From positions 1 through 45,002 of the forward strand of contig JAOQAP010000013.1 in the NCBI GenBank assembly GCA_025963465.1: 45,002 bases of DNA, read 5' to 3'. The notes beneath the pieces were generated by a model. It saw nothing but the letters and a program-made list of their open reading frames with translations, was not told where the DNA came from and did no database searches. Position 1 is the stretch's first letter. The number at the start of each line of letters is the position of its first letter. This document shows positions 18,610 through 33,494 of the stretch, one piece after another. This stretch comes from Flavipsychrobacter sp. GTDB taxonomy: Bacteria > Bacteroidota > Bacteroidia > Chitinophagales > Chitinophagaceae. The position numbers were made by a program, and so were the translations under genes.

Positions 18610-18876
18610 TACTGTTTACACAAGTTAATTGAAGTGCAAAGGTACGTGGATTAGATGAAAGGTAGATAGGCCATACGTTAAAACAGATCGCTATATCTGA
18701 TAGCTTACCAAGCCCAAACCACCGTTAATACACTGCGATCTGCAATAATATGTTCGGGAAAACGCGAAAATCAGCAACAAAAACGGGCTTGAGAAAATGT
18801 TGAGGTAGCAATAAGATGTAGTAACCATACAATCAATCCGTTAGAACGAAATAAAAATCTATGATAGACCGCTAGC

Positions 18877-18893
18877 TGTAGTATGATACTACA
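18877..18893. promoter_or_regulatory. Palindromic operator candidate
   Basis: Two perfect 8-base arms, TGTAGTAT and ATACTACA, flank a central G. The site lies 26 bases upstream of the -33 element of the promoter that serves the phage-like block, where a dimeric repressor or activator could bind. No regulator gene is present in the window to match it. Confidence 0.45.
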
Positions 18894-18919
18894 CTTTTCG
18901 TGTTATCACAGATCGCTCT

Positions 18920-18951
18920 TTTGCCAGAGTGAAAAATACGTTTCACCTTTG
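18920..18951 (+). promoter_or_regulatory. Promoter of the phage-like operon
   Basis: TTTG at 18920-18923 and CACCTTTG at 18944-18951 are 20 bases apart, one mismatch from the TAnnTTTG consensus. Transcription would start near 18957, so a GTG at 18951 cannot be the start codon and the ATG at 18978 is used. Confidence 0.6.
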
Positions 18952-18977
18952 TGTCACAAAACAACGATATCCCTATC

Positions 18978-19970
18978 ATGACAGACAAATTCAAGAAAAT
19001 AGACAGGCAATATGTGCTATCCGACAGCTCAGTAAATGAATACGGATTCCGGCTGCTGACATCAGGTTATCAACTGGCCTCTTTCCAAAAGAACCCTATA
19101 GGCTACTACATGCACCGGCGTGAGGACGGCATAGCGCTGAAGTGGGAAGACCTGCGTGTAGATGATGATAAAGTAATAGGAACCCCGGTTATCAACCTAT
19201 CGAACGGAAGGGGCGAGCAAACCTGCGATGAAGCAGAGAACGGTTTCCTGAATGCGGCATCGGTAGGCCATATAGTAGTGCTGGAATACAGTACAGACCC
19301 GGAACTGATGCTACCGGGACAAACGGGGCCAACCATCACAAAGTGGTATAATAAAGAATGCAGCCTTGTAGACATACCCGGCAATTGCAACGCGCTGACA
19401 CGCTTATATGACGCACAGGAAAACGAGATAAACCTGGTAGACCTGAATATAACCTCGCCAGTTATAAAAGCGCTGCAGCAAAACACAATCCAACTACTAA
19501 GTGATACGCTACACCTTGAGGGCGAACATACCGAGCAAAAACTGGTAAATGCAGTACAAGACCTGATTGCGAAAGCAGGATGTGCTGAACAGGAAAATAA
19601 ACTATTGCGAAACGACAAACAAACACTGCAACAACAGATAGACGAACTGAACAGCGCAAGAACAAAATTTGAAATAACCGCACTGCTGGACAGAGCGCTT
19701 GAAGACAAGAAAGTGACAGCAGAGTTAAGTGGTAAGCTGGCCAATGACTATGCAACAAACCCAGAAGGGCTGAGATCATTACTTGCAGCAATGCCTGCAT
19801 ACCGCTCTATAGCTACCCATCTGAGAAGCAAACAGCAGGACAATACAGAAGCACAGTGGCAATGGGATGACTATGAAAAGAACGATCCAACAGGAAAAAA
19901 ACTGAAAGAATTGCGTGCGAATGATGCGATAAAGTATAAAGAATTGTTTGACAAGAAGTTTAACTCCTGA
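18978..19970 (+). CDS. Prohead protease with fused scaffold-like domain
   Basis: The ATG at 18978 gives 330 residues. Residues 1-145 carry the features of the HK97-type prohead serine protease family: NPIGYYMH with His46, NAASVGH with candidate nucleophile Ser95, and ECSLVDIPGN at 127-136. From about 200 on the protein is charged and helical with a coiled coil (QTLQQQIDELNSA), as expected of the scaffold that such proteases often carry and then digest. Its target should be the capsid protein encoded next. It opens the operon; portal and terminase genes that usually precede it are absent. Confidence 0.75.
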   Translation: MTDKFKKIDRQYVLSDSSVNEYGFRLLTSGYQLASFQKNPIGYYMHRREDGIALKWEDLRVDDDKVIGTPVINLSNGRGEQTCDEAENGFLNAASVGHIVVLEYSTDPELMLPGQTGPTITKWYNKECSLVDIPGNCNALTRLYDAQENEINLVDLNITSPVIKALQQNTIQLLSDTLHLEGEHTEQKLVNAVQDLIAKAGCAEQENKLLRNDKQTLQQQIDELNSARTKFEITALLDRALEDKKVTAELSGKLANDYATNPEGLRSLLAAMPAYRSIATHLRSKQQDNTEAQWQWDDYEKNDPTGKKLKELRANDAIKYKELFDKKFNS

Positions 19971-20003
19971 CCCTAAAGGGCAACCATCTATTAAGCCGAT
20001 GGA

Positions 20004-20075
20004 TCACTCTCCACTAATGTAATTCTCATCTGATTTATAATATCCGCCGGGGCCGGGCAGCGGTTTTGGCTTCAT
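20004..20075 (-). other. Short antisense open frame in the protease-capsid gap
   Basis: The 272 bases between protease and capsid genes hold no plus-strand gene with a good start. On the minus strand a frame open from 20126 to a TGA at 20004 contains an ATG at 20075 and would encode 23 residues (MKPKPLPGPGGYYKSDENYI then SGE). The local sequence is richer in G and C than its surroundings. It could be a micro-gene, a decayed fragment, a structured leader of the capsid gene, or chance. Confidence 0.2.
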
Positions 20076-20242
20076 GAGGTAGGTTTTCCCCTGCCTGTGC
20101 CCACGGCATTTTTTCTCTTTGCATCCCTAACTAATCAAGCTAATACCAAAGATCTGAAGAACGCGCTATAGCTATGCGTGCTATTAAGCAGACCTATCTG
20201 TTTACTCCAATCAAGTTATCAATCACCAATCAATAATCAACT

Positions 20243-21154
20243 ATGGCAATTCAAAAAGAGATCTGGCAAGACCACATCGAAGGCAACCTGTTTAAGAACA
20301 ATGAATTCCTGCTGGCGTCAACAGATGCAGGACAGTATGTGCTGCAAGGCAAGGTAGTGCATATACCACAGGCCGGAGCACTGGCAACAATAGTGAAAAA
20401 CCGCAGCAGCATACCAGCGACCGTTGTACAGCGTGGCGACACTGATGTAACCTATACTCTTGACGAGTACACTACCGACCCGATACTGATACCTAATGCA
20501 GAAACCTTTGAGCTAAGCTACAACAAAAGGGAAAGCGTGCTGGGCGAGTACGAATCCTCCCTGAGGCAAACGGTAGCTGACAACCTGCTTATAGATTGGT
20601 GCCCTACAGGATCGACAGGAACTGTAATACGCACAACAGGAGCTAACACAGCGACACACCTGGCGGGCACAACCGGCACACGCAAGAAATTTACAGTAAA
20701 TGACCTGAAGAATGCGCAGCTGCAACTGAACAAACAGAACATACCAATGGAAGGCCGCTATGCACTGATCAGTGCTGATATGTTTCAGCAGCTGACAGAT
20801 GATATGTCTGCAACGCAGTATCGTGACTTTAGTGCAGCATATGATGTAAAAGATGGTATACTGGGCCGTTTATTTGGTTTCAACATTATGATGCGTGGCG
20901 GTGTAGCTACATACACAAATGATGCAGCACCTGTAGTAAATCCTTACGGCGCCTCTGCAGCTGTTACGGATAATGATGGCGTACTCTGCTGGCAGGTAGG
21001 CGCTGTAGAGCGCGCACTGGGACAGATCACATTCTTTGAACGTATCGGCGATCCGACTTTTTACGGAGATGTATACAGCGTGAGCGTACGCATGGGTGCA
21101 CGTATGCGCCGCAGTGATGCAAAAGGAATAATAGCAATAGTTCAGGCTGCATAA
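20243..21154 (+). CDS. Major capsid protein, HK97-type
   Basis: The 303-residue protein resembles capsid subunits of Bacteroidota Mu-like and related tailed phages: an N-arm (IWQDHIEGNLFKNNEFL), a strand GKVVHIPQAGALATI, then YTLDEYTTDPILIPNAE and a spine helix region, and a late AVERALGQITFFERIG segment. Such subunits form icosahedral shells. The length is normal and nothing suggests truncation. The scaffold-protease gene is upstream. Without a portal gene it is unclear whether the shell can be filled with DNA. Confidence 0.75.
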   Translation: MAIQKEIWQDHIEGNLFKNNEFLLASTDAGQYVLQGKVVHIPQAGALATIVKNRSSIPATVVQRGDTDVTYTLDEYTTDPILIPNAETFELSYNKRESVLGEYESSLRQTVADNLLIDWCPTGSTGTVIRTTGANTATHLAGTTGTRKKFTVNDLKNAQLQLNKQNIPMEGRYALISADMFQQLTDDMSATQYRDFSAAYDVKDGILGRLFGFNIMMRGGVATYTNDAAPVVNPYGASAAVTDNDGVLCWQVGAVERALGQITFFERIGDPTFYGDVYSVSVRMGARMRRSDAKGIIAIVQAA

Positions 21155-21205
21155 CCACGGCAGGAAAGACGGCAGCTATGTAACTCTATAAGACAACCAA
21201 GAGCT

Positions 21206-21472
21206 ATGCTTTCAGAAATTAAAATATGGATACTTATTGCGGTGGCCGGTGTAATGGCTACGATGCTGGGCTTTATAATAAATGTAGTCACCGGCCAGAT
21301 CATAAAACGACTGGATGAGATAGCGCTGGAACTAAAGCAACTAACGCAGGCGACCACTATACAGGGCCAGCAGATAAAAGGACTGCAGGAGCAGGATGCC
21401 ATGATACACCGCCGCCTCAATGAGCATTCAGAACGCATACACTCCCTGGAGTTAAAAACGGTCAAAGAATAA
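21206..21472 (+). CDS. Small membrane-anchored coiled-coil protein
   Basis: The 88-residue protein has one membrane helix at about 5-28 (IWILIAVAGVMATMLGFII) followed by a helix with heptad-like spacing (IKRLDEIALELKQLTQ ... LNEHSERIHSLEL). This layout recalls XhlA-type hemolysin/holin-associated proteins, but no specific family is certain. It is the only evident single-pass membrane protein made in sense direction by the block and lies between capsid and sheath genes. It could help release particles or tether them to the inner membrane. Confidence 0.6.
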   Translation: MLSEIKIWILIAVAGVMATMLGFIINVVTGQIIKRLDEIALELKQLTQATTIQGQQIKGLQEQDAMIHRRLNEHSERIHSLELKTVKE

Positions 21473-21554
21473 TGATGATCCTCAATAACCATATTGATGA
21501 AAAACGCTTAAAGGTCCAGCCCCTATTTCCTATCAGCAAATCAAATCACCATTT

Positions 21555-21779
21555 ATGAAACATGCTAACAACTATTTCGAAAACAACACAGTAGACCGAC
21601 TCTACTTTACCAGCGACAATCTTGCATTTTTTGATGAGCAGAATGCAAAAAATCATGCGAAGAAACTGGATGACCCGACAATAACATCGATAACCCGGGA
21701 AGAAGCCGACCAGGCCGTAAATGACCTTGTAAACGGACAATGGGACGATGATCTCTTTGACGATATCGATACACAGTAA
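21555..21779 (+). CDS. Small acidic phage protein
   Basis: The 74-residue product begins with a polar stretch and contains LYFTSDNLAFFDEQNAKNHA, a pattern I associate with short proteins beside capsid or sheath genes in Mu-like phages of this phylum, followed by TITSITREEADQAV and a very acidic end. Its role is not known; a head or neck accessory function is possible. It lies 28 bases before the sheath gene. Confidence 0.6.
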   Translation: MKHANNYFENNTVDRLYFTSDNLAFFDEQNAKNHAKKLDDPTITSITREEADQAVNDLVNGQWDDDLFDDIDTQ

Positions 21780-21807
21780 TATACAATCACTTCTAAACAA
21801 CTAAATA

Positions 21808-22995
21808 ATGGGTAGTGTAAACATTACACTGGCTAATGGCCAGCTGGGAGGAACCCTCCAGACAAATGACGGAATAACCGGGATAGTACTAACCGGCATA
21901 TCGGAAAGCGGCGGGTATACTGCCGGAACACCAATACTTGTAAACAGCCTTGCCGATGTAACAACTGCGGGTATTACGGAAGCAGATAATCCATTTGCCA
22001 TAAAGCAGCTGAAAGAGTTCTACAACCAGGCGGGAACAGGAGCCTCATTGTACATGATGCTGGTGCCAGACACTATGACTGTGGCACAGATGGCAGACAA
22101 TACGAACGCCAATGGCGCTAAAAAGCTCCTGGATTTTGCTGCCGGCAAAATAAAAGTATTGGGCTTGCTAAGCGATGACGTAGCAATAACTGCCGCAGGC
22201 GGTACAGTAACTGTTACTCACGGACTAAACGGCGACGTGTATACATCGGCAAGTAATATGGCTGTAATGAGTGCTGCCTATTTCGCTGCAGAGAAACCAT
22301 TCAGGGCTGTTATAGGAGGCTCTTCTTATAGCGGAACACCATCTGCGCTAACAGATGAGGCCACAGGCACAACAAATAACAGGACAGCCGTACTAATCGG
22401 AGATACTGTAACAGGAGCAAGCGCATGCATAGGCCTGCTGCTGGGTGTAATATCAGCTATTCCGGTTCAAAGGAAAATAAGCAGAGTAAGAAGTGGTGCA
22501 CTTACCAATACGGCTGCATTCACGGGCACATCAACTGTTGAAGCCGTAGGGGCAGGAGCACTAGCAACAATAGCAGGTAAAGGATTCATCACATTTACTA
22601 CTTACCCTAATGTAAGTGGCTATTTCTTTAGCGGAGATCCGATGTTAACTGCAACAACAGACGACTATTGCATGCTGGCAAGAGGAAGGGTGATAGACAA
22701 GGTACACATACTGGCCTATACAACATTTGTGCAGGAGGTGGATGATGAAGTACCCGTAAATACGGATGGCACCCTTGATGCAGGATTCTGCAAATGGCTG
22801 AGCCAGCAAATAGTAAACCAGGTAAACAATACCATGACTGCCAATAAAGAGATAAGTGCTGTTAGCTGCTTTATTGATCCGGCACAGAATATACTCAGCA
22901 CCAATAGACTGAATGTTGTGTTAAAGGTACTGCCTGTAGGCTACGCCACAGAAATACAGATCGACTTAGGGTTTACAAATCCGGCAAATCAGTAA
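21808..22995 (+). CDS. Contractile tail sheath protein (DUF2586-like)
   Basis: The 395-residue protein has the look of the DUF2586 sheath family of Bacteroidota phages: an N-terminal strand (GSVNITLANGQLGG), TDNGIT-like repeat turns, a domain with GTPILVNSLADV, and the conserved C-terminal part with GYFFSGDPMLT, CMLARGRVIDKVHILAYTTF and a final strand region that interlocks neighbouring subunits. Sheath contraction drives the tube through the target envelope. It is followed by the tube gene as in contractile phages. Confidence 0.8.
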   Translation: MGSVNITLANGQLGGTLQTNDGITGIVLTGISESGGYTAGTPILVNSLADVTTAGITEADNPFAIKQLKEFYNQAGTGASLYMMLVPDTMTVAQMADNTNANGAKKLLDFAAGKIKVLGLLSDDVAITAAGGTVTVTHGLNGDVYTSASNMAVMSAAYFAAEKPFRAVIGGSSYSGTPSALTDEATGTTNNRTAVLIGDTVTGASACIGLLLGVISAIPVQRKISRVRSGALTNTAAFTGTSTVEAVGAGALATIAGKGFITFTTYPNVSGYFFSGDPMLTATTDDYCMLARGRVIDKVHILAYTTFVQEVDDEVPVNTDGTLDAGFCKWLSQQIVNQVNNTMTANKEISAVSCFIDPAQNILSTNRLNVVLKVLPVGYATEIQIDLGFTNPANQ

Positions 22996-23044
22996 TGATC
23001 AACCATATATCTCCAAACAATAATCACAATTAAAAATATTATTT

Positions 23045-23476
23045 ATGCCATCAATAAATTTTTTTGATAGTAAAGATTGCGAATGGGCAGACATGACCGT
23101 AATGTTTGCCGGCGCCCCACTAACAAAGATCAGGGGAGTAAAATACAAAGCAGCAAAAGACAAACAGTTGCTACATGCTGCCGGTGATGAGCCTATAAGT
23201 ATACAAAGCGGCAACCGTACATACGAAGGACAAATAAAAGTGCTAAAAGGCGCAATAGATGATATGAATCGTGCAGCACTTGTAGCAGGAGGAGATGATA
23301 TACTGGATATCCAGTTTGATATTGTCATTACCTATAAGCCTAAAGGGACACGCCCATTGCAAACAGATACCCTGGTAGGAGTAGAAGTAAAAGACTTTGA
23401 AAAAGGATGGGAACAGGGTGCTAAGAATATGGACGTAACGCTACCGATAATATTTCTGAAGTTATTGTCTGAGTAG
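23045..23476 (+). CDS. Tail tube protein
   Basis: This 143-residue protein lies directly after the sheath gene, the usual place for the tube subunit. It has a tube-like beta pattern: SINFFDSKDCEWADMTVMF, GAPLTKIRGVKY, a loop, then QSGNRTYEGQIKVLKGAIDDMN and a final TLVGVEVKDFEKGWEQGAK with a closing strand. Its hexameric rings would stack inside the sheath. Confidence 0.75.
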   Translation: MPSINFFDSKDCEWADMTVMFAGAPLTKIRGVKYKAAKDKQLLHAAGDEPISIQSGNRTYEGQIKVLKGAIDDMNRAALVAGGDDILDIQFDIVITYKPKGTRPLQTDTLVGVEVKDFEKGWEQGAKNMDVTLPIIFLKLLSE

Positions 23477-23530
23477 TACTCCGAAATTTAGCAGTAAAAA
23501 AATATCTATCTAACAATATAAATACCTGAA

Positions 23531-23851
23531 ATGTCAAAGACCAACGAATATATAGGCCTGGCCACCGAAGCGCAAATAGGTGAATGGAAAGCAAAATACA
23601 AATATGGTATATACGCTATAGAAGTAGACGGCCACATAGCATACTTTAAAAACCCTGGCAGGAACGAGCTAAACTGCGCAATGAGCAAAGCTGACAGAGA
23701 TAAAGCACTAGACATTTTTGAGGAGCTGGCCAACGTCACTTTTATAGGTGGCAGCGAGGAAATACTAAAAGATGATCAGATGTTCATCGGCGTAAGCCAG
23801 GAGCTAAAAGTGAAACTGGACGGCAAAAAGGCAACCCTGGTAAACTTATAA
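23531..23851 (+). CDS. Tail assembly chaperone, G-like short form
   Basis: The 106-residue product lies between the tube and tape measure genes, the place of lambda gpG or Mu gp41. It is a small acidic alpha/beta protein (AYFKNPGRNELNCAMSKADRD, DIFEELANVTFIGGSEEIL) as typical for phage chaperones that coat the tape measure protein. Near its end lies a C AAA AAG stretch (23824-23830), and the -1 frame beyond it stays open for 57 codons, so a longer GT-type form is probable. Confidence 0.75.
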   Translation: MSKTNEYIGLATEAQIGEWKAKYKYGIYAIEVDGHIAYFKNPGRNELNCAMSKADRDKALDIFEELANVTFIGGSEEILKDDQMFIGVSQELKVKLDGKKATLVNL

Positions 23852-24003
23852 CGGAGTCCTGCGGGGGACCGGCGCAGGATTCCATAGGTTACCTGGAAAC
23901 ATTACTTGAATACTACTTACCGGGCCTTGACCATCATTCACTCAGCGATGAAGCTTTTGCTCAGAAGATAGCGCACTTGCAGTATATAAGAAAGCAGGAA
24001 TAA
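23824..24003 (+). CDS. -1 frameshift extension of the tail chaperone
   Basis: In the -1 frame the sequence from 23830 reads through the G-form stop codon at 23849 and runs to a TAA at 24001. It encodes a protein-like stretch (DSIGYLETLLEYYLPGLDHH, then SLSDEAFAQKIAHLQYIRKQ and a final E). That frame has no ATG, GTG or TTG that could start the extension itself. Slippage at C AAA AAG would fuse about 100 residues of the G form to 57 more. Comparable frameshifts are conserved in tail chaperones of lambda, Mu and many other phages. Confidence 0.65.
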   Translation, partial: QKGNPGKLITESCGGPAQDSIGYLETLLEYYLPGLDHHSLSDEAFAQKIAHLQYIRKQE

Positions 24004-24029
24004 TTGTATCAAAGCGTTGCAAGCACTAC

Positions 24030-24557
24030 TTAGCGATTTAGTTCTATTTCCTGATCACGGGATGATCTGCGATTAACCTTAACATTTCCGTCAGGAAGGA
24101 TATTCTCTGCTTCTATTACTATAAAGTCAAAAATCTTGTCTTTGTATCCAGAATTAAACCCGATCATGAGCATAGCCGGTTCTTTGCCTGTTGCCTTCAA
24201 ATCAAAAGGTATTATTACGTTCTCATGATATACAGCATAGTCTGAATTCTTTGCAAACAGCGTATCATATGTCTTGTACCAATTCTCAATTGATGTCAAC
24301 TTATACTTGCCAACATATTTGCGTGTAGTCTCATAATTAGCGTCAATAAGAAGTTTCAAATCATCCTTTGGCGCATCCGGATTATATCCTTCAACAAGAG
24401 TTAACACATAAAAGCGCTCATCTTTCATTATATGCTCTACAAACTCCTGAGCCATTGCAATTTTCGGATCCAGAAGACTTTCATCAATGTGTTTTGATGA
24501 GTGGTCACATCCAGATAGCAACAAGAGAAATGAGAGAAAAAATAATCGTGTTTCCAT
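24030..24557 (-). CDS. Antisense lipoprotein inside the tail operon
   Basis: I place the start at 24557, where a lipoprotein signal begins (METRLFFLSFLLLLSGC, lipid on Cys17); an ATG at 24587 precedes it. The 175-residue protein has a mature domain with alternating helices and strands (IAMAQEFVEHIMKDERFYVL, YAVYHENVIIPFDL, AMLMIGFNSGYKDKIFDFIV). I do not recognise its family. Its opposite orientation between chaperone and tape measure genes fits a moron gene. A TATTTTTG element lies 5 bases upstream of the ATG. Lipoproteins of this kind sometimes block superinfection, but that is inference here. Confidence 0.65.
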   Translation of the reverse strand: METRLFFLSFLLLLSGCDHSSKHIDESLLDPKIAMAQEFVEHIMKDERFYVLTLVEGYNPDAPKDDLKLLIDANYETTRKYVGKYKLTSIENWYKTYDTLFAKNSDYAVYHENVIIPFDLKATGKEPAMLMIGFNSGYKDKIFDFIVIEAENILPDGNVKVNRRSSRDQEIELNR

Positions 24558-24623
24558 GGTACAAAAATAAAAATATAAGTGTTTCATGAAAAAACAAAAT
24601 GCATCAGACTAAAATAAAAACTC

Positions 24624-26150
24624 ATGGTACAGATAATGGATATTAATTGGTTTCTTCCTCTACGTGCAAATTTAGAATTGCTGAACAATGCGATATACAG
24701 TATAACAGACCGGGTACAACAGCTCGACACTTCCCTGGCAAGCCTTAACAAAAGCCTCAACACATTAACTAATAATAAACTGAATCTAACTGCAATATCC
24801 GGGAAATACGCTAATGTCATCACGTCCCATGAAGACACAACTGAGACTGAACCCATACGCGCCGATAAAAATCATGGCAATAAAAAAAAGTATACAGAGG
24901 TTGCTATATCTCTTGGAGAGCTAGCGGAAAGTAACCTGAATTTAGTAAACGCATTCAGAAAATTATCTCCAGCGATGGAGGAGGTCAAAGGAGATGTTGA
25001 ATTTCTGAACGGAGGTTTGAAAGCTGTGAGCGGAATGGAAGCATTTTCGACCGCAGGAGGTTTAATAGAAAGCCTTATTGGGGCCGGCGCGATCATTGCA
25101 GGGGCAGAAGCCATAATATCTGCTGCAACGGTAATGAACCCAATAGTCTTAGGTACAGGAGCGGTGATTTTGGGAGGCGTAGCAGCAGCAGAACATGGCA
25201 AATATTTCAGTAAAAAACCTGATGTTTTAAAAAATAATTTTTCAGACGAAGCACAGCAGAAAGGAAACCAATATTCTCTAAAGGCGAAAAGTAATGATAT
25301 CCTGGCAAGCCAATATGTAGAACTGAAAAACAGGCCTAAAGAAAAGTCGGTCAGCCAGGTGACCAAAGAAGTCGAAATTCTCAAAAAAAGTTTTTTACGA
25401 CAAGGAGGCACGATATCGTTCGACCATCAAAAAACTGCAGGTAACGATCCAATATACCTCCAGGCATTAGTTGAAGCGTTAAACTATAATGACAGTTCAA
25501 AAAGGAGACCAATAACAAATGTGGAATTTGAAAAGCCCGAGGACTTACTCACATTCAGAAATCAATTTGACAAATTCAGTCATTTCCCATTGAATCTGAT
25601 CCCGTACGTAAATGACACACTACGGCTTAGTAATGAAAACAATATGAGAGGCGCGGATGCCTGGTCAAATAGTACTTCACTCGTTCCTGTAGACAAAGAA
25701 AAAGCGCGAAAGCAACCTTCATCAACGGGCAGTATTCTAAAGCCGATTCATGATATAGCCTTAACCGCTATTATCCAATCATACTTAAGTAACGGCCTTC
25801 CGTATGTTCAAAAAGAATATCAAAACTATGTAAGTCAGTTCCCAGCAACCAAGAATCAGGCTAATATAGTCTGGAAAGAATTCCAGGGAATAAAAGGCCT
25901 GATAGACAATGAACAAATTGATATAACAACCTGGCAGAATGCGGCATCTAACAATCAGATCGGAAGAAACCACAGAAGTACATTGGCCGCCACGGAGCCC
26001 ACACGTCCTGGAGTTACCATTAACTTAAATAGGCCGATGATAGGAAACTTCACGATCAACACTCGAGACATGAAAGAAGGCATGACCGACTTTAAGCACA
26101 AAGTTGAAGAAGTATTGCTGGAAATTCTAAACAGCGCAAACGTAATATAA
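24624..26150 (+). CDS. Tail tape measure protein
   Basis: The 508-residue protein follows the chaperone, the standard tape measure position. It has an N-terminal helical coiled coil (LNKSLNTLTNNKLNLTAI), hydrophobic glycine/alanine-rich segments at about 145-195 (LIGAGAIIAGAEAIISAATV), a long helical and polar middle and a C-terminal VEEVLLEILNSANVI. A length of 508 residues at about 1.5 angstrom per residue implies a tail of roughly 75 nm. It has no phage lysozyme or peptidase domain that I can see. Confidence 0.7.
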   Translation: MVQIMDINWFLPLRANLELLNNAIYSITDRVQQLDTSLASLNKSLNTLTNNKLNLTAISGKYANVITSHEDTTETEPIRADKNHGNKKKYTEVAISLGELAESNLNLVNAFRKLSPAMEEVKGDVEFLNGGLKAVSGMEAFSTAGGLIESLIGAGAIIAGAEAIISAATVMNPIVLGTGAVILGGVAAAEHGKYFSKKPDVLKNNFSDEAQQKGNQYSLKAKSNDILASQYVELKNRPKEKSVSQVTKEVEILKKSFLRQGGTISFDHQKTAGNDPIYLQALVEALNYNDSSKRRPITNVEFEKPEDLLTFRNQFDKFSHFPLNLIPYVNDTLRLSNENNMRGADAWSNSTSLVPVDKEKARKQPSSTGSILKPIHDIALTAIIQSYLSNGLPYVQKEYQNYVSQFPATKNQANIVWKEFQGIKGLIDNEQIDITTWQNAASNNQIGRNHRSTLAATEPTRPGVTINLNRPMIGNFTINTRDMKEGMTDFKHKVEEVLLEILNSANVI

Positions 26151-26154
26151 CAAC

Positions 26155-26817
26155 ATGGCAGAGATATCATTTAGCCTCGCAAATTTATTTGAGCAGACGT
26201 TCGGCTATAAAACAAAAGCGTTCGACCCCGAATTCACGCATGTAACAAATGTCAATCCCCCGAGCAGAAATGAGCAGGGCACACACGGATCATCATACTA
26301 TGCGAAAGACAAAACAGGTACAGAATATTTTATGCCTGTTACACTTACTTATACAGATATTAGCCTCTTACCTGCTTCAGCCCAGAACAAACCTGCCTCC
26401 GGGGGTAATCAAACAAGCGCAACTTTGAGAAAATGGAATTTGCCCTACCCTGTGATTTCAATTTCAAGCAGGAAAACCATTATTGAGACACCATTAACTG
26501 AAAGAAGAGGCACAGTAAAAGAGTTGATAAACATAAAAGACTATGAGATCACTATCAAAGGCTTCATTATTGGCAATAAGGACGAATTTCCCGAAGCCGA
26601 TATAACTATACTCAGAACGATATTTGAACAAAACATTCCATTATCGATACAATGCCCACTGACAGATATTTTCCTTTTAAGACCTAGCAGAAGCGGCAGC
26701 GATCACATAGTAATTACCGAATTAAAGTTACCAACTATATCAGGCGTGAAAAATATAAGACCATACGAATTGCACCTGGTGAGCGACGAACCTTTTAACC
26801 TTATATCCATATCATAA
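26155..26817 (+). CDS. Baseplate-associated protein (DUF6046-like)
   Basis: The 220-residue protein lies between tape measure and hub genes, where Mu gp43 or P2 gpU-type proteins lie. It recalls DUF6046 of Bacteroidota phages, with PVTLTYTDISLLPASAQN-type segments, ISISSRKTIIETPLTERRGT and YEITIKGFIIG. It probably caps the tail end or links the tape measure to the hub. Its TAA shares a base with the ATG of the hub gene, indicating translational coupling. Confidence 0.55.
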   Translation: MAEISFSLANLFEQTFGYKTKAFDPEFTHVTNVNPPSRNEQGTHGSSYYAKDKTGTEYFMPVTLTYTDISLLPASAQNKPASGGNQTSATLRKWNLPYPVISISSRKTIIETPLTERRGTVKELINIKDYEITIKGFIIGNKDEFPEADITILRTIFEQNIPLSIQCPLTDIFLLRPSRSGSDHIVITELKLPTISGVKNIRPYELHLVSDEPFNLISIS

Positions 26818-27863
26818 TGTTTGTATTATCCAGCGACATAACTATTGGCAAATTCCATTTCAGTGGTATAAATAATGTACTCATCAGGCGCAGTATATAT
26901 AGCATTGAAGAAACTGCGACGATAACTATTCCTTCAATTGCCAGGATAATACGTAACGGGAAAGTGCAGCCTGAATTGATAACAACAGGCAGACTGTTTA
27001 CAGAAGGAGATCCGGTGATCATTAAGCTTGGATACAATAACGCACTCCAGACGGAATTCCGAGGATTTGTAAAACGACAGAATCTAAAAATACCCCTGGA
27101 AGTAGAATGTGAGGGATATAGCTGGCAATTAAGAAGGAATAAGATAAAAGAGGTGTCAGGCGAAGTAACAATCAAAGAACTACTGAAGAACGCCGTATCT
27201 GGAATAAACAGTCGTTATAGGATATCTGTTGAATGCAAAGTAGACATTACCTTAAATAATGTGCATTTTAAGAACGAAAGCGGGTTTGATATAATTAACA
27301 GCATATCTAAATATACTGACGGAAATCTTACTTGTTTCTTTATAAGACCAGATACTTTATGGTGCGGATTGCTATACACTGAATGCGCTAAAGGCAATAA
27401 TATATTAAGTACACCACAGATCAAATACAGGCTTGGATATAATGTAATAAAAGACAATTCGCTGAAAGAGCGCTTAACGGATAGTGACCCTACACAGGTA
27501 ATTTATAGCAAAAAACTTCCTAAAGGAGAGAAAATATCCGGTACTTCTGACGCATTCAGGAAATATGTAAGGACACACAATAAGATACTGAATCAAATAA
27601 AGGAAGCACCAGTGTTAAAGAAACTTGCCAATGAAAAGGCTTACCAATTGAATTACATAGGTTATGAAGGTACGATCAACACTTTTCTTGAGCCTTATGC
27701 TATACCGGGATATGAAGCATTTATCGTTGACAGTCGGTATCCGGAGCGCAACGCTATTTATTTAATAGAAAGTGTAGAAACAACTTTCGGGATATCTGGT
27801 GCGCGTAGAAAAGTTGAGGTTGGTATAAAATTTAGTTCTGCAAAAATAATGCTACATGAATAA
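26817..27863 (+). CDS. Baseplate hub protein, gpD/gp44-like
   Basis: The 348-residue protein has the order of hub proteins: an N-terminal beta domain (ITIGKFHFSGINNVLIRR, ETATITIPSIARI), a GDPVIIKLGYN strand with a LQTEFRGFVKRQNLKI loop, and a C-terminal RRKVEVGIKF. Hubs form a trimer that joins the tube to the spike. It overlaps the preceding gene by 1 base and the spike gene by 8. Confidence 0.65.
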   Translation: MFVLSSDITIGKFHFSGINNVLIRRSIYSIEETATITIPSIARIIRNGKVQPELITTGRLFTEGDPVIIKLGYNNALQTEFRGFVKRQNLKIPLEVECEGYSWQLRRNKIKEVSGEVTIKELLKNAVSGINSRYRISVECKVDITLNNVHFKNESGFDIINSISKYTDGNLTCFFIRPDTLWCGLLYTECAKGNNILSTPQIKYRLGYNVIKDNSLKERLTDSDPTQVIYSKKLPKGEKISGTSDAFRKYVRTHNKILNQIKEAPVLKKLANEKAYQLNYIGYEGTINTFLEPYAIPGYEAFIVDSRYPERNAIYLIESVETTFGISGARRKVEVGIKFSSAKIMLHE

Positions 27864-28407
27864 GAACACTACAAGAATAAAAGACGGCATTAGAGCCTTA
27901 GCAGGAATGCCTCATGAGATCATTAGTGGAACTGTGATTGCAGGAAGCATAAATGATTCTTCATTTACGATGAGCGTACAACCCAACGACGACAGTGCGC
28001 CAATTAAACATGTAATGTTGACAACGGCTACAGAGAATGACAATGGTGTTATCCTGTTCCCCAAGGAGGGCAGCAATGTTGTAATTGGAAGTGTTGATGG
28101 TAGCGGGGAATGGGTATTGCTTAGATGCGGTGAAATAACAAAGATCAAAGCGAAGATCATCGACGTGGAGTATGAAATAGATGACGCTCAGGTAAAAATA
28201 CAAAATGGCGGATCACTGTTTAATATTGGAAGTACTGTATTCAAAATGAATACATCGGGCGAAAGCTTATTTCAGCTATTGAAAGACCTGATAACAGAAT
28301 TGACGGCACTCACAGTAACAACCAGTACCGGTATAAGCAGCACGCCGAATAATACTACAAATTTCAGCGCACTCCTAGTAAGACTAAACAATTTGCTGAG
28401 CGCATAA
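27856..28407 (+). CDS. Baseplate spike protein, gpV/gp45-like
   Basis: The 183-residue protein has an OB-fold-like N-terminus (ISGTVIAGSINDSSFTMSVQ, GVILFPKEGSNVVIGSVDGS) followed by a short stretch of repeating hydrophobic and polar residues (IIDVEYEIDDAQVKI) that can form a small triple-stranded beta-helix, then a helical end. It would tip the tube and pierce the target envelope. It has no attached toxin domain or PAAR motif. Confidence 0.65.
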   Translation: MNKNTTRIKDGIRALAGMPHEIISGTVIAGSINDSSFTMSVQPNDDSAPIKHVMLTTATENDNGVILFPKEGSNVVIGSVDGSGEWVLLRCGEITKIKAKIIDVEYEIDDAQVKIQNGGSLFNIGSTVFKMNTSGESLFQLLKDLITELTALTVTTSTGISSTPNNTTNFSALLVRLNNLLSA

Positions 28408-28420
28408 AAAGTATAATACT

Positions 28421-28720
28421 ATGGCAAGAGAAATGACTGACATAAGTCTGGATGAATCTGAAGATCTGTTAATATCCTCAGGTGATTTTATTGTAAATGA
28501 ATGCACCGCCCAGCATCAGCGCCAGCTGGTATTGAACAATAGTGGTGATTTTAAACAGAATCCAACTGTATCTGTAGGCATTGTTGACTACCTGGATGAT
28601 GAGAATTACCAGGACCTTATGAGAAAAATTAGTCTTGAATTTATCAAAGATGGTATGGATGTAAAAAGTGTGACGCTCGATGCGACAGGAGTAATAAAGA
28701 CAGATGCATACTACCAATAA
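28421..28720 (+). CDS. Baseplate wedge protein, gp25/W-like
   Basis: The 99-residue protein follows the spike gene, the position of gp25/gpW in contractile systems. Its pattern (ISLDESEDLLISSGDFIVNE, QHQRQLVLNNSGDFKQNP) agrees with the short gp25-like proteins of Mu-type phages in this phylum, and the end repeats a strand. It would link the sheath base to the wedge. Family assignment rests mainly on order and size. Confidence 0.6.
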   Translation: MAREMTDISLDESEDLLISSGDFIVNECTAQHQRQLVLNNSGDFKQNPTVSVGIVDYLDDENYQDLMRKISLEFIKDGMDVKSVTLDATGVIKTDAYYQ

Positions 28721-28759
28721 CCGGTCTAAGTCTTTACACAATCAAAACACGAAATATCT

Positions 28760-29731
28760 ATGGATAATACAATAACGGTAAAACCCAACCAAAGCATGCT
28801 TGATGTTATTCTCCAGGCTTTGGGAAGTATCGAAACAGGGATGTCCTTCTGCGCTTATAACAATATTTCAATTAGCGACACACCTATAGTTGGGACATCA
28901 TACAAAATACCTTCAACAAATGATATTCAATTATTGTCGGACCAAAGCACATTGAAATATTACGGAGAGAACGACATAGTAGTTGGCACACTTGGTTCAG
29001 CACCTCCGATATCTCTTGGAATGACCATTGTTTTAAAGCCATTCCTGAATTCAATGTATGAAGGTGGTTTTGCCCCACCAGTGCAGGGATACTATGGAAT
29101 AATATTCGACTGCACTCCTGACTTTACTAATATCAACCCACTTGTCGCTTCATATCCCGGAGACAATAAACTGACTTATGAAGAGTATTCAGCAATGTAT
29201 GCGGGGACGCCACCTACTATTACATTGGAGATCGGAGGGCTACCAATGGCAGCTAAACATCTTTGGTACCAGGTACCGTGGGTAAGTCCCCAAAATGTAT
29301 GGGTGTGGAATCCACATTTTACCGGACAAACTATAACATTTGAAGATATAGCAGGAAACACAGCGATATTTGCACCGGTTATTGTACTGATAGACAATGT
29401 TCCGCTCTTTCATGAACAGATGATTGCCAGTCTCCAGGTCGACTTTGTTTCGTCTGACAGCAATACTGTCACACTTCGTCTTACCAGGAGTCACCTACCT
29501 CCTGTTTACACAAATGTCATACCTCCTTATGGACATATGGAGATGCACTGGGTAGTAGCCGGCGCAGTACCATACGAAGATCCTGCCAATGCGGGAAATC
29601 CGGACATACAACTGATCGACCTGACACCGGGATTGCATACACTAGGTGTAGAAACGGAATACATAGATGATGTAACACCTTTTACATTTCCTGCACGCAG
29701 TCTTTGTACACAGGTCATCGAAATAGCATAA
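28760..29731 (+). CDS. LysM-like baseplate protein
   Basis: The 323-residue protein starts with a LysM-like region (ITVKPNQSMLDVILQALGSI ... VGTSYKIPS, residues 3-50). The same kind of domain precedes J genes in other Bacteroidota phages, where it is thought to hold baseplate or peptidoglycan contacts. The remaining part is rich in aromatic and Pro residues and probably beta sheet, possibly a fibre-attachment or carbohydrate-binding section; I do not recognise it. Confidence 0.5.
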   Translation: MDNTITVKPNQSMLDVILQALGSIETGMSFCAYNNISISDTPIVGTSYKIPSTNDIQLLSDQSTLKYYGENDIVVGTLGSAPPISLGMTIVLKPFLNSMYEGGFAPPVQGYYGIIFDCTPDFTNINPLVASYPGDNKLTYEEYSAMYAGTPPTITLEIGGLPMAAKHLWYQVPWVSPQNVWVWNPHFTGQTITFEDIAGNTAIFAPVIVLIDNVPLFHEQMIASLQVDFVSSDSNTVTLRLTRSHLPPVYTNVIPPYGHMEMHWVVAGAVPYEDPANAGNPDIQLIDLTPGLHTLGVETEYIDDVTPFTFPARSLCTQVIEIA

Positions 29732-29749
29732 CATTAAAAATAAAAAATA

Positions 29750-30577
29750 ATGGCAAGAACTATAGCAGAGATACAGGCTGGAATGATAGCAACAAAAGCC
29801 GCCGACACCTCCCTCTCCGGATTGACAAGTACAAGCCAATCAGCTATTTGGCTGTTGTGGACGTGGGTGGTAGCTACAGCACAATGGACGCTGGAGCAAT
29901 TATTTGACGCACATAAAAATGAAGTTGCATCGATCATTAGTACTCAAAAACCACATACGTTACAATGGTATGTGGCTATGGCCAAAGCGTACCAGAAAGG
30001 AATAACACTTCCTCCGGACACTGATGTGTACCCATTAGTACCGCCTGCAGACCCTTCGGTATTGATCGTGGCATATGCTGCTGCAGTCGAGCTCATTGGT
30101 ATTGTACGAATTAAAGTAGCCAAAAGCAACAGCGGCTCATTAGCTAAATTAGGCACAGACCTTCCCGCTTTCCAGGCATACATGACCAGGATAAAAGATG
30201 CAGGCGTACGATTGCAGATAACCAGCGATGACCCTGATACTCTGCAACTGGCATTAGGTATTTACTACGATCCATTAATACTTGATAATACCGGCGCAAG
30301 ACTAGACGGCACGTCTGCTACACCTGTGAAAGATGCGATCAGATCTTTTCTTGAAAATCTGCCCTTCAACGGATTATTTGTATTGAACTACCTCATTAAG
30401 GCTTTGCAATCGATAGAGGGTGTAAGAATAGGCGAAGTAGTGACGGCCCAGGCGCAATACGGACTGCTTCCATACACGAATATTCCTGTGGAGTATCTGC
30501 CGGATTCCGGGTATATGGCATTAGATGAAACGTTCTTTGACGCCAATATTACCTATACAGCACATACCCCCATTTAA
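29750..30577 (+). CDS. Baseplate wedge protein, J-like
   Basis: The 275-residue protein begins MARTIAEIQAGMIATKAAD and continues with a helix (SAIWLLWTWVVATAQWTLEQ), then IIS-QKPHT and a beta/helix core ending in VEYLPDSGYMALDETFFDA. This arrangement matches the shortened gpJ-like proteins of Bacteroidota Mu-like phages. J proteins form the triangular wedge around the hub. The next gene, I-like, follows by 55 bases. Confidence 0.6.
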   Translation: MARTIAEIQAGMIATKAADTSLSGLTSTSQSAIWLLWTWVVATAQWTLEQLFDAHKNEVASIISTQKPHTLQWYVAMAKAYQKGITLPPDTDVYPLVPPADPSVLIVAYAAAVELIGIVRIKVAKSNSGSLAKLGTDLPAFQAYMTRIKDAGVRLQITSDDPDTLQLALGIYYDPLILDNTGARLDGTSATPVKDAIRSFLENLPFNGLFVLNYLIKALQSIEGVRIGEVVTAQAQYGLLPYTNIPVEYLPDSGYMALDETFFDANITYTAHTPI

Positions 30578-30632
30578 TGTATATCGTACCACACTTTTAA
30601 TTAAACATATCCTCTAAAAAAGCACGGAGATC

Positions 30633-31142
30633 ATGGGACTATTCGATGTTGATTATAATAGATTATCGTGGCAGAATATGCCAGTCAGGCTACGAAAAAG
30701 TATTCATTATGCATGGCTCAAATGTTTGGTGTTACCGGTAGTTTACTTACATGGCCTGTTTACAACTAACCGGGCAAATAACTTGTACAGGCTAAATCAC
30801 AGTAGCCAGGTGTGTTATATTGAGGCATTACTAAACGATACGTTTGACAATATAGACAGAGGAATATTTATCAGTGAGATCGAGTACCATGACCCTGTAT
30901 ATATTTATGAATCGCTGGAGAATAAACCTGTTTATATAGATCTCATCAGTGAGATTGGAACGAGTATTATTCTCCCGCCGGACCCCATTCCATTGTATAC
31001 AGATGCAGAAGTAAGTTTTACCGCTCCGTTCTTTATTGTCAATGTCCCGTCAACTATCATCTTCGATATCACCAGGATGAAAGCACTAATAGATCAGTAC
31101 CGCCTTGCAGGAAGAACAATTTACCAGATCGTAACTTTTTAA
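30633..31142 (+). CDS. Baseplate wedge protein, I-like
   Basis: The 169-residue product lies between J-like and fibre genes, the place of gpI. It starts MGLFDVDYNRLSWQNMP, has a helical segment near 25-45 (YAWLKCLVLPVVYLHGLF) and a beta-rich end (DAEVSFTAPFFIVNVP, DQYRLAGRTIYQI). The role, joining the wedge to tail fibres, is inferred from order. Confidence 0.55.
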   Translation: MGLFDVDYNRLSWQNMPVRLRKSIHYAWLKCLVLPVVYLHGLFTTNRANNLYRLNHSSQVCYIEALLNDTFDNIDRGIFISEIEYHDPVYIYESLENKPVYIDLISEIGTSIILPPDPIPLYTDAEVSFTAPFFIVNVPSTIIFDITRMKALIDQYRLAGRTIYQIVTF

Positions 31143-31166
31143 TTACAACCATAAAATACTCAAATC

Positions 31167-32006
31167 GTGAAAGCAATAGATTTTACTCAGCCCGGCGGTT
31201 TCCCGCTTACACAAGACCAACTCGATTACCTGCAAAGCGCTTATACAGAGTGTCTGAACACTCTTGGCTGCCTGGGCAGCAACAATAGTACACCAGCGAT
31301 GCTTAGTGGTATGGAAAGCACACCGGGAATTGGCGGATCAACTAACGTAAGTGCAGGATGGTTTTTCTACAATGGAGAGTTGGTCCGTTTCCCGGCGCAG
31401 AGCTACCCTGCGGTATCGCCTGGCAATGCTATGTATGTAGTAATAACACCCGGGGCCGGTCCGCTTACCTACCACGACGGCAGCACACCAAATGTAATAC
31501 TCGAAAAAACGGGCTTACTGCTGCAACTGGTAAACACAACCCCAACAGATGCAACACATTTTTTGCTTGATGACATAATACCATTTGGTGTCGGGCTGGG
31601 GCTAAACAATCGCGAGGCTTCATGGAATAGCCTTGTGGTAAATACACTGCCGGCAGTAGGTGGTGTTACAGGCACCATCTTTTATAAAAAGAATTCCCTG
31701 ACAAATACATTACATATCAGGGCCAACCTGGCTGCAAACAATGCACAAAATTTTCCGCCTTCTACTGCAGCAATATATTCTTTGATGGGAACCTTACCGG
31801 CAGGTTATGTACCAAATAACATTGCACTCTTTACCGCTAGCTATTTTGCATCATTCCTTATCAAAGACGATCTGGGTGTCGCATGGGTGAAGCAAGTGAA
31901 TTGCGCTGTCAATACAGGTGGTCAAATCTTTGTCAACTGGCTACGCCCTGACATTTCAATAGGAGCTTACGGTCTTGATTTCAATACGATCATACCGCTC
32001 GACTAG
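31167..32006 (+). CDS. Tail fibre / receptor-binding protein
   Basis: The 279-residue protein is the last gene of the block. It starts with a Gly/Pro-rich attachment-like region (FTQPGGFPLTQDQLDYLQSA), then NVSAGWFFYNGELVRFP and a beta-rich C-terminus ending SIGAYGLDFNTIIPLD. Short fibres of this size are usual in phages of this phylum. No fibre-assembly chaperone follows. Its stop is one base from that of mreD on the other strand. The target receptor cannot be predicted. Confidence 0.55.
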   Translation: MKAIDFTQPGGFPLTQDQLDYLQSAYTECLNTLGCLGSNNSTPAMLSGMESTPGIGGSTNVSAGWFFYNGELVRFPAQSYPAVSPGNAMYVVITPGAGPLTYHDGSTPNVILEKTGLLLQLVNTTPTDATHFLLDDIIPFGVGLGLNNREASWNSLVVNTLPAVGGVTGTIFYKKNSLTNTLHIRANLAANNAQNFPPSTAAIYSLMGTLPAGYVPNNIALFTASYFASFLIKDDLGVAWVKQVNCAVNTGGQIFVNWLRPDISIGAYGLDFNTIIPLD

Positions 32007-32007
32007 A

Positions 32008-32553
32008 TCATATACGCGACGTGCTTTGTCTTGTAAACAAAAGCAGGTAAGCAATAATGAACAACATAGATGTAATAGCTGACGCTACGATCTTTAGTAG
32101 CAGGAATCCGAAATTGGAAAAATTCCATAATTCCAGGGTAAAGAAAACAAAATGATGCAGTATGATCAGGAAAGCGCTGTACACCAGGAACGGCATCCAT
32201 CCCATACTTTTTATTGAAGGATGCTGGCCTGCATATTCCGATAAATTCCTTGGTAGTAATGCGCTCAATACATTTGTGCGTAAATAGGCAATAAGTATAG
32301 TAGCGCATGCGTGCATACCGGCTGTATTCATAAATGTATCAACAGAAACACCCATTATAAAACCTAAGATCAGCAATGCCCACACAGGTGTTTCAAAGGG
32401 CAATAACAAAATGAAAAGCGGGTATACATAAGGAATAAATACCGGGAAGCCGGAAGGTTCACTCCACCAGCGCAGTGTTATCTTGTTCAGGATCAGCACC
32501 TGCAGCAGGATGATGATACAAAAACGCAAGATATTTTTTATGTACACGTTCAT
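32008..32553 (-). CDS. mreD: Rod shape-determining protein MreD
   Basis: MreD is the inner-membrane partner of MreC in the elongasome. The 181-residue protein has about five membrane helices (for example YVYPLFILLLPFETPVWALL) and ends in a short polar tail. Its start lies 2 bases after the mreC stop codon, so the genes are coupled. mrdA (PBP2) and rodA, which often follow mreD, are not in the window; the phage-like block lies there instead. Confidence 0.88.
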   Translation of the reverse strand: MNVYIKNILRFCIIILLQVLILNKITLRWWSEPSGFPVFIPYVYPLFILLLPFETPVWALLILGFIMGVSVDTFMNTAGMHACATILIAYLRTNVLSALLPRNLSEYAGQHPSIKSMGWMPFLVYSAFLIILHHFVFFTLELWNFSNFGFLLLKIVASAITSMLFIIAYLLLFTRQSTSRI

Positions 32554-32555
32554 GG

Positions 32556-33410: not shown

Positions 33411-33494
33411 TTTTTGTAGCTGGGATGAGTTGTTATTATATAAGTTGTATGTACAAATTGCCTGTATTGCATTTACAATACAGGCAATTGAAAA

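Follow-up and report, generated by a model that had tools for sequence, protein, structure and literature searches.

Structural and packaging modules

We analysed a 45,002-base stretch of Flavipsychrobacter DNA (the window), which is the entire contig C63 of its genome. It carries a block of 16 open reading frames (ORFs) on the plus strand, from 18981 to 32006, beginning with a protease gene and ending with a fibre-like gene (Table 1). The block sits between host genes, clpX on the left and mreD-mreC-mreB on the right. It encodes a Mu-like capsid and contractile tail, and is considered here as part of a candidate gene-transfer agent (GTA). Genomes, loci and contigs are denoted by G-, L- and C-numbers, respectively. 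The genome of the window, G000, is 4.18 Mb in 277 contigs and 97.5% complete, and the genus set comprises 35 genomes.

A preliminary description of this DNA had recognized an intact Mu-like capsid and contractile-tail block. Our analysis bears this out: all 16 ORFs are open, and family matches are found for the protease (weak), capsid, sheath, tube, DUF6046 protein and hub. The capsid, sheath and hub keep their names by family, while those of the spike, gp25-like, gpJ-like, gpI-like and fibre proteins come from gene order alone, with no named match. The protease match is weak, and its position is that of the annotated prohead protease in the phage record BK068093. Its start was placed at the ATG at 18981; an alternative GTG at 18951 lies within the promoter box. 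When a structure model of the capsid was searched with Foldseek, phage capsids ranked first with low TM-scores (0.28-0.41), and encapsulins appeared at E 0.2 or worse. Because these scores are low and the model is weak at residues 1-100 and 258-286, the identity of the capsid leans more on the sequence profile. The name of the tube leans on its place, since its best PHROG, 9206 (E 2e-23), carries the label major head protein. The AlphaFold model of the protein encoded at 28760..29731 has no PDB match at E 0.001.

Queries for TerL and TerS (the large and small terminase subunits), gp36, portal, tail completion, MuA, MuB, MuF, neck and endolysin found no match in the window at E values up to 0.01. 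A second intact module is located on contig C235 (locus L093), where TerS, TerL, the gp36 adaptor, a Mu-type portal and a tail-completion-like protein form a minus-strand run. The earlier claim that packaging and portal genes are missing thus stands for the window and fails for the genome, which has TerS, TerL, portal and adaptor on C235. TerL was found with the large terminase that stands beside the structural block in the sister genome G006. This close homologue overturned the result of an empty Pfam PF03237 search, from which it had appeared that the genome has no terminase. The C235 module is also flanked by host genes, galE-like on one side and methylmalonyl-CoA-mutase-type on the other. 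Since both contigs have host genes on both sides, the two modules are at least about 18 kb apart, if the contigs are right. MuA-like transposase, MuF and CHAP endolysin were not found in the genome of the window.

TerL is matched in 31 of the 35 genus genomes, including 24 of the 25 of good quality. Residues that we take to be the Walker-type lysine and serine, the Walker-B aspartates and the nuclease acidic residues are invariant in all 33 domesticated copies. The packaging modules are duplicated in two genomes: second TerL copies (69% identical to the query) are found on G019:C126 and G026:C125, with the shared promoter element described below nearby.

Taken alone, the block is a capsid and contractile tail without packaging genes, as a headed tailocin or a protein-loaded shell would be, and the sequence is compatible with RNA, protein or no cargo. 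Against such a DNA-free particle, the terminase, portal and adaptor are conserved, under selection and behind a common promoter, and Foldseek prefers phage capsids to encapsulins. A DNA-free shell is not expected to retain an intact terminase and portal, so we regard it as highly improbable. The protein-loaded shell lacking packaging machinery, as first proposed, is not supported, as TerL is present with its key residues unchanged. The domesticated particle and the split gene-transfer agent, proposed alongside it, are strengthened by the terminase and portal elsewhere in the genome and by the same place of the block in relatives.

The nearest annotated phages by capsid (49% identical) are transposable phages of Porphyromonas (BK068093, phage012a_381OKJP). 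Their gene order is repressor, transposase and MuB, then a minus arm (tail completion, neck, portal, adaptor, TerL, TerS), then a plus arm (protease, capsid, endolysin, holin, tail). Family profiles match the corresponding phage ORFs at E values of 9e-185 (TerL), 6e-121 (transposase), 2e-98 (portal), 7e-73 (MuB), 3e-45 (TerS), 3e-38 (gp36), 5e-27 (tail completion) and 9e-24 (neck). BK068093 has no annotated sheath, and its portal ORF is fused to a MuF part. By this homology, we identify the window as the plus arm and C235 as the minus arm of a Mu-like transposable phage that was divided at the terS/protease promoter, from which the arms diverge. Unlike the genus copies, which are split and have no mobility genes, the Porphyromonas phages are contiguous and carry transposase and MuB. 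Neck genes had been reported missing between capsid and sheath. They are absent there, but this is normal, as the nearest annotated phages carry the neck in the divergent left arm.

Contiguous arms with MuA, MuB, MuF and a PF05069 neck protein are seen in prophage-type copies (G009, G012) and in copies of family- and order-level relatives. The MuA of prophage-type copies has no Pfam match and is named via the Porphyromonas transposase; the MuF of the G009 copy is PF04233. The modules of G000 have neither the MuA-type transposase nor the contiguous late arms of an active Mu-like prophage. Among the genus genomes, strong MuA matches occur in three (G009, G012, G022) and weak partial matches in two more. 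In G009 and G012 the MuA gene lies on the contig of the second, prophage-type copy, and G022 has prophage-type pieces. MuF is matched in five of the 35, G000 not among them; one match (G016) is a C-terminal fragment and another is in a genome without the modules (G033). The portal measures 362-375 aa in 16 uncut domesticated copies (351 in G032) and 399-451 aa in five uncut prophage-type copies. The tape measure is 367-508 aa in 21 domesticated copies aligning as one ORF and 545-667 aa in six prophage-type copies. In the prophage-type copy of G009 (L116, 15165-16346), MuF has a C-terminal CdiA_C-like domain (PF18451, E 4e-11); domesticated copies have no MuF.

Parts kept for the benefit of intact relatives or satellites, or exploited by them, would fit the finding of prophage-type copies that carry MuA and MuF (whole in G009 and G012, in pieces in G022). 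The host would then complement or block incoming phages, or help another element to spread. Strong MuA is found in three of 35 genomes as against both modules in 28, and the five structural proteins tested gave no match to a defence family. We see very little chance that this accounts for the modules.

Table 1. Features of the window and related features elsewhere in G000 (two dots, window positions; C-numbers, contigs)
Feature	Position	Strand	Evidence or remark
clpX, left flank, host gene outside the element	17362..18609	-	PF07724, PF06689
Late promoter	18850..18953	+	Half-sites TATGATA, TATGATA, TATCACA, 22 nt apart; -33/-7-like pair TTTTGCC ... TTCACCTTTG; 70.4 bits to model R1
Prohead protease/scaffold	18981..19970	+	PHROG 11321 (unknown function) E 1e-58; PHROG 617 (labelled major head protein) E 2e-6; PHROG 328 head maturation protease E 0.001
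Major capsid protein	20243..21154	+	PF19821 above cut-off; PHROG 267 E 2e-31; profile matches solved phage capsids (PDB 9jwb_A, E 3e-14)
Small membrane-anchored coiled-coil protein, holin/spanin-like	21206..21472	+	Weak PHROG matches only (E about 1e-3)
Small protein, function unknown	21555..21779	+	Present in many relatives
Tail sheath (DUF2586)	21808..22995	+	PF10758 E 3e-50; PHROG 907 tail sheath E 2e-38
Tail tube	23045..23476	+	Place; PHROG 4579 tail protein E 4e-8
Probable tail assembly chaperone	23531..23851	+	By place; PHROG 19076 (unknown function) E 3e-17
Lipoprotein-like gene inserted within the block	24030..24587	-	No family match
Tape measure, short, fast-evolving	24624..26150	+	By place
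Baseplate hub-associated protein (DUF6046)	26155..26817	+	PF19512 E 1e-28
Baseplate hub	26817..27863	+	PHROG 4930 E 9e-49
Spike-like protein	27856..28407	+	By place; profile without PDB match
gp25-like baseplate protein	28421..28720	+	By place; profile without PDB match
Beta-rich baseplate-region protein, unknown	28760..29731	+	AlphaFold2 mean pLDDT 79.7
Baseplate wedge, gpJ-like	29750..30577	+	By place; PHROG 38413 (unknown function) E 3e-55
Wedge/tail protein, gpI-like	30633..31142	+	By place; no family match
Tail fibre-like protein	31167..32006	+	By place
mreD, mreC, mreB, right flank, host genes outside the element	32008..34529	-	PF04085 E 2e-37, PF06723 E 5e-126
TerL	G000:C235:20888-22408	-	Query from G006, 71% identical
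gp36 adaptor	C235	-	PF07030
Mu-type portal	C235	-	PF06074 E 7e-61
Tail-completion-like protein	C235	-	PHROG 6911
Same promoter element, upstream of terS	G000:C235:22976-23077		
Solo TerS-like genes under shared promoter	G000 C253, C214, C142, C56, C164, C220		Loci L237-L240, L242, L243

Among the flanking genes, mreD has no Pfam match and is named by its place between the fibre gene and mreC; it ends 1 nt past the fibre gene. What is inserted before the tape measure differs among genus genomes (several of L031-L052): minus-strand lipoprotein-like ORFs and other small ones, possibly cargo or immunity genes.

Conservation, selection and inheritance

Capsid, TerL and gpJ-like searches combined place both modules, in domesticated form, in 28 of the 35 genus genomes, a count that includes G022, whose TerL is cut by a contig end. 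The other seven are three genomes less than 66% complete with neither module, and G001, G032, G027 and G033. The capsid query alone matches 28 genomes including G000, with G023 and G027 having phage-type copies only. The gpJ-like query matches 30, G033 and G027 via phage-type copies.

The right border of the block is constant. mreD follows the fibre gene in all 23 genus genomes whose sequence extends past it, with a gap of less than 60 nt in 22. The remaining one, G034, has a stop 756 nt before mreD and a shorter fibre ORF. Five further genus genomes with a fibre match end inside the fibre gene and are not in this count. Outside the genus, mreD also follows the fibre gene in L148, L153 and the isolate F. 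stenotrophus RB1R16. In this isolate the structural module is present, with a shorter counterpart of the gene at 28760, and TerS/TerL lie 11-14 kb away. To the left of the protease the genes vary, and include clpX, pheS, a DUF4143 ATPase, a DEAD-box helicase and others. Where both are on a single contig, capsid and TerL are separated by 5.4-6.2 kb in six genomes and by 20-25 kb in four others; the distance rises to 87 kb in G029 and to 125 kb in G002.

The genes of both modules are largely intact. ORF lengths are near-constant and the best matches are without stops, with few exceptions: in G026 the tape measure is in two pieces, in G031 the frame of the capsid gene is broken (on a contig of 6.5 kb), and some small genes are short. 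In domesticated copies, neither TerL nor the main gpJ-like match contains an internal stop; one stop lies within an extra gpJ-like fragment of G020. Nearly all block and packaging genes are under strong purifying selection. Omega (dN/dS) was computed by the Nei-Gojobori method for the four closest pairs, G007/G014, G021/G034, G019/G026 and G004/G020. It is 0.01-0.03 for the capsid (three pairs), 0.04-0.05 for the sheath (four pairs), 0.03-0.06 for the gpJ-like gene, 0.06-0.07 for TerL (three pairs, with G019/G026 saturated) and 0.05 for the portal (two pairs). The tape measure reaches 0.23-0.63, and the remaining genes are at most 0.22. Over all pairs with dS below 1.5, the median omega rises to 0.21 for the protease, 0.30 for the tape measure and 0.32 for the extra gene c1, most pairs being saturated. 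The tape measure, variable in length, evolves far faster than other block genes (median dN 1.19). The DUF6046 genes of G004 and G020 (L032/L031) have a synonymous divergence of 0.18 compared to a median of 1.16 for the pair, which suggests recent recombination inside the block.

Trees indicate common inheritance of the two modules. The tree of ten structural proteins shares 11 of 21 splits with the TerL+TerS tree for 24 genomes, while 500 label shuffles gave a mean of 0.16 and a maximum of 2. The TerL copy used for G019 and G026 may not be the orthologue, since each has two. In a TerL tree of 47 rows, all 33 domesticated copies, five of them from outside the genus, fall on one side of one branch. 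The host tree was built from three genes only, mreBCD.

These results answer the sequence-based checks that the preliminary description had named. The same block stands at the same place in all 23 checkable genus genomes, terminase and portal are found elsewhere, in the intact C235 module, and dN/dS is low for nearly all genes and higher for the tape measure. It had also named what would speak against its proposal, a normal prophage arrangement close by or loss of the block in relatives. The proposal stands: searches of the genome gave no transposase, and the packaging genes form a module of their own, apart from the block. Loss or absence of the block is seen in a few relatives (G001, G032, G033).

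Shared promoter and TerS-like genes

The regions upstream of protease and terS contain a common element. In it, an A-tract is followed by three TATGATA-like half-sites at a spacing of 21-22 nt, then by ATTTG and, after about 19 nt, by TTCACCTTTG. The arrangement ATTTG ... TTCACCTTTG fits what we take to be the Bacteroidota promoter type. The promoter alignment holds 51 sequences selected by a script seeking the promoter; three protease regions (G007, F101, F102), in which the script saw no promoter, were unplaced.

The half-site region varies between genomes and matches between the modules of one genome, with a mean local score of 44.9 within genomes and 23.8 between them (0 of 20,000 permutations). 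The best partner of a site is that of its own genome in 13 of 24 genomes. As controls, the promoter part alone scored 19.2 vs 17.2 (212 of 20,000), and the region further upstream 18.2 vs 16.5 (97 of 20,000). When the comparison is limited to genus genomes whose modules are on different contigs or separated by over 7 kb, the scores are 39.7 vs 22.9 (0 of 20,000, n=15). A common DNA-binding protein would produce this pattern, and so would gene conversion between the two sites.

Model R1 of the element matches two of 12 phage-type records below E 0.001 (L160, L056). These two are a Riemerella columbina prophage, matched just upstream of the protease (E 4e-7), and the phage-type copy of G027; there is no match in the Porphyromonas phage L344. 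The element therefore probably arrived with the phage. A 7-nt three-copy period score was rejected, as neither prophage nor domesticated promoters could be distinguished from shuffled sequence with it, and the claim of phage sites rests on the R1 model. A small protein beside the packaging module, k9, was rejected as the promoter regulator because it is not found there in several genomes. Of 32 domesticated copies, 15 have a perfect TTATCCACA, presumably a DnaA-box-like 9-mer, in the 400 nt upstream of terS; upstream of the protease it occurs in two of 31. It lies about 20 nt before the three-part site (for example in L103 and L097).

The element is also found outside the two modules. R1 has 20 matches in G000 at E 0.001, among them ten near-full-length places, the best two of which are the modules. 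Five of the other eight precede solo TerS-like genes (from 203 aa, at a contig end, to 339 aa), and the remaining three precede a short TerS-like piece, an AAA_25 ATPase gene and no clear gene. When these eight were taken together with 40 high-scoring places chosen from other genomes, the next gene downstream belonged to the TerS family at 24 of the 48, and three of these genes were nearest to the module type. At the best TerS-like locus of each of 30 genomes, the element is on the same strand in 18. The TerS family is present in 34 of the 35 genus genomes, with nine matches in G000 and a range of 1-15 (the module TerS is probably counted), and in five of 64 other genomes, four of these with a capsid match. 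Exact paired half-sites number 28 in G000 (one in the reversed control), 56 in G008 and 40 in G010, ranging from 0 to 56 in the genus and from 0 to 4 outside it. In 320 kb of G010 contig C1, R1 finds three places, one of which is the protease promoter.

The TerS-like proteins start with a helix-turn-helix, and profile comparison with module and phage TerS (E 1e-14 to 1e-36) shows the homology of the family to the terminase small subunit. Two readings were considered. The three-part repeat may be a recognition (pac-like) site for TerS, with repeats and terS copies multiplied across the chromosome, giving a GTA with distributed packaging starts. If true, packaging would start at many chromosomal places and the host would gain a programmed, genome-wide export of DNA. 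We consider this unlikely. Alternatively, the elements form only a wider regulon, in which the three-part site is an operator and the TerS-like proteins are DNA-binding regulators without a packaging role. This is compatible with a GTA, and we give it about an even chance. The helix-turn-helix is in its favour, as is the promoter-like pair that follows the aligned sites, although these were selected by that pair. The homology to the terminase small subunit and the presence of some sites without the promoter part speak against it.

Additional features were noted around these sites. The TerS-like copies L238, L240 and L243 are nearly identical, and L240 (1673-2680, G000:C56) matches PADLOC mad1 (E 9e-8) in the helix-turn-helix only. 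AAA_25 ATPase genes stand under the shared promoter at L236 (G000:C174) and L259 (G019:C161), and the ATPase is possibly a further member of the regulon. At L254 (G008:C100), in the genome with the most paired sites, the gene under the shared promoter has HNH_repeat and HNH endonuclease domains (PF18780, PF01844). L341 (9163-10852, G034:C92) contains three near-identical paired half-sites with similar downstream sequence within 1.7 kb, which look like a dispersed repeat family.

Relation to gene-transfer agents

Our analysis suggests that the two modules probably make a phage-derived particle of the gene-transfer-agent kind, split between loci, inherited vertically and of independent origin. 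We propose that its ancestor was a transposable Mu-like phage of Bacteroidota with a contractile tail, captured probably on one occasion. After capture it would have had neither transposase nor MuF; the loci read also lack MuB and a neck gene. Its two divergent late arms would have separated at the terS/protease promoter, one (in the window) retaining protease, capsid and contractile tail and the other (elsewhere) TerS, TerL, portal, adaptor and tail-completion protein. Since both kept the late promoter with its three-part site, one regulator could fire both. The terminase would then fill heads with host DNA, some cells would lyse, and the tail would deliver the DNA to kin. In the simplest account, selection keeps the head, the tail and the DNA-packaging machinery together across loci, the mobility genes are gone and inheritance is mainly vertical.

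Several points weigh against this proposal. Particle production, DNA content and transfer are predicted from genes only. G001 and G032 match the packaging module, and no capsid or gpJ-like gene was found in them; G033 has neither module and G027 a phage-type copy only. Outside the genus, TerL rather than mreD follows the fibre gene in L144. The metagenome-assembled genome (MAG) L151 keeps protease, capsid and part of the sheath, and the later tail genes before mreD are gone, so domesticated copies can decay. Endolysin is matched in 14 of the 35 genus genomes, G000 not among them. Agreement with the mreBCD tree is partial, at 7 of 15 splits for the structural tree and 5 of 15 for the TerL+TerS tree (n=18, shuffle maximum 3). 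The TerL branch that unites the domesticated copies is weakly supported (62/19), and the capsid tree needs three changes, with one clade not rejected (p-AU 0.366). In four of 24 genomes (G003, G012, G021, G034) the partner promoter site ranks only 17th to 24th. In six genomes the modules are only 5.4-6.2 kb apart, and the particle might package its own genes.

Some of these points would fit a defective Mu-like prophage remnant, old and slowly decaying after rearrangement: the structural block not found in G001 and G032, the loss of most tail genes in L151 and the lack of endolysin in 21 of 35 genomes. The lack of a transposase in G000 and the stop in the extra gpJ-like fragment of G020 would fit as well. 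However, the TerL and main gpJ-like matches have near-constant lengths without internal stops, the key TerL residues are invariant, the place of the block is constant, and omega is below 0.25 for every gene except the tape measure in the four closest pairs. Decay would not keep omega so low across the genus, and we therefore consider a remnant quite improbable.

The split Mu-derived particle, our preferred reading, was compared with known systems. R-type tailocins are contractile tails kept by the host, with no capsid or terminase. The contractile tail is common to both, whereas capsid and terminase are conserved only here; the modules thus differ from a tail without capsid and packaging genes, and also from an encapsulin capsid without tail or terminase. 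In the part of PMC9662315 available, GTAs are defined by six features, including dispersed loci, an endogenized genome and vertical inheritance. Proteins derived from Caudoviricetes that would build a tailed particle are found here by homology, which that definition accepts. The genes are endogenized at several loci, with the G000 modules on C63 and C235 between host genes. Vertical inheritance and co-diversification with the host are seen, the agreement with the mre trees being partial. For a genome too big for the head, the capsid-TerL distances are divided, with 20-125 kb in six genomes and 5.4-6.2 kb in six others. We use the term GTA candidate, not GTA, because three of the six features are found and others, the packaging of mostly random host DNA and its delivery to other cells, concern particles.

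According to the same part of PMC9662315, the Brachyspira GTA (BhGTA/VSH-1) also has a single conserved terL outside the structural cluster and co-diversifies within its genus. It differs in its non-contractile tail, its phylum and its demonstrated transfer, with no homology shown; here the genes are the evidence. RcGTA and other alphaproteobacterial GTAs are similar in dispersed loci, vertical inheritance and selection for maintenance (PMC9662315, in part). These GTAs had a different ancestor, and their packaging of host DNA is demonstrated, compared to genes only here. FpGTA of Faecalibacterium likewise has TerS, TerL, portal and capsid and a non-proteobacterial host. Unlike the modules here, it is podovirus-like, forms one 10.5-kb operon and has had its packaged DNA sequenced (PMC12946183, in part).

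Very few GTAs are known outside Alphaproteobacteria, as stated in the part of PMC12946183 available. In our searches of open-licence papers, we found no GTA described in Bacteroidota and no relevant work on phages of Flavipsychrobacter. The available part of PMC11841831 does not mention 'Bacteroid', 'contractile', 'myovir' or 'Mu-like'. If our reading is correct, a contractile, Mu-derived GTA of separate origin would exist in most sampled species of one Chitinophagaceae genus and in a cultured relative. It would open a new phylum to tests of GTA domestication. Promoter sites that co-vary between modules, together with the enlarged TerS family, would offer a direct handle on how split modules are coordinated and how host DNA is chosen for packaging.

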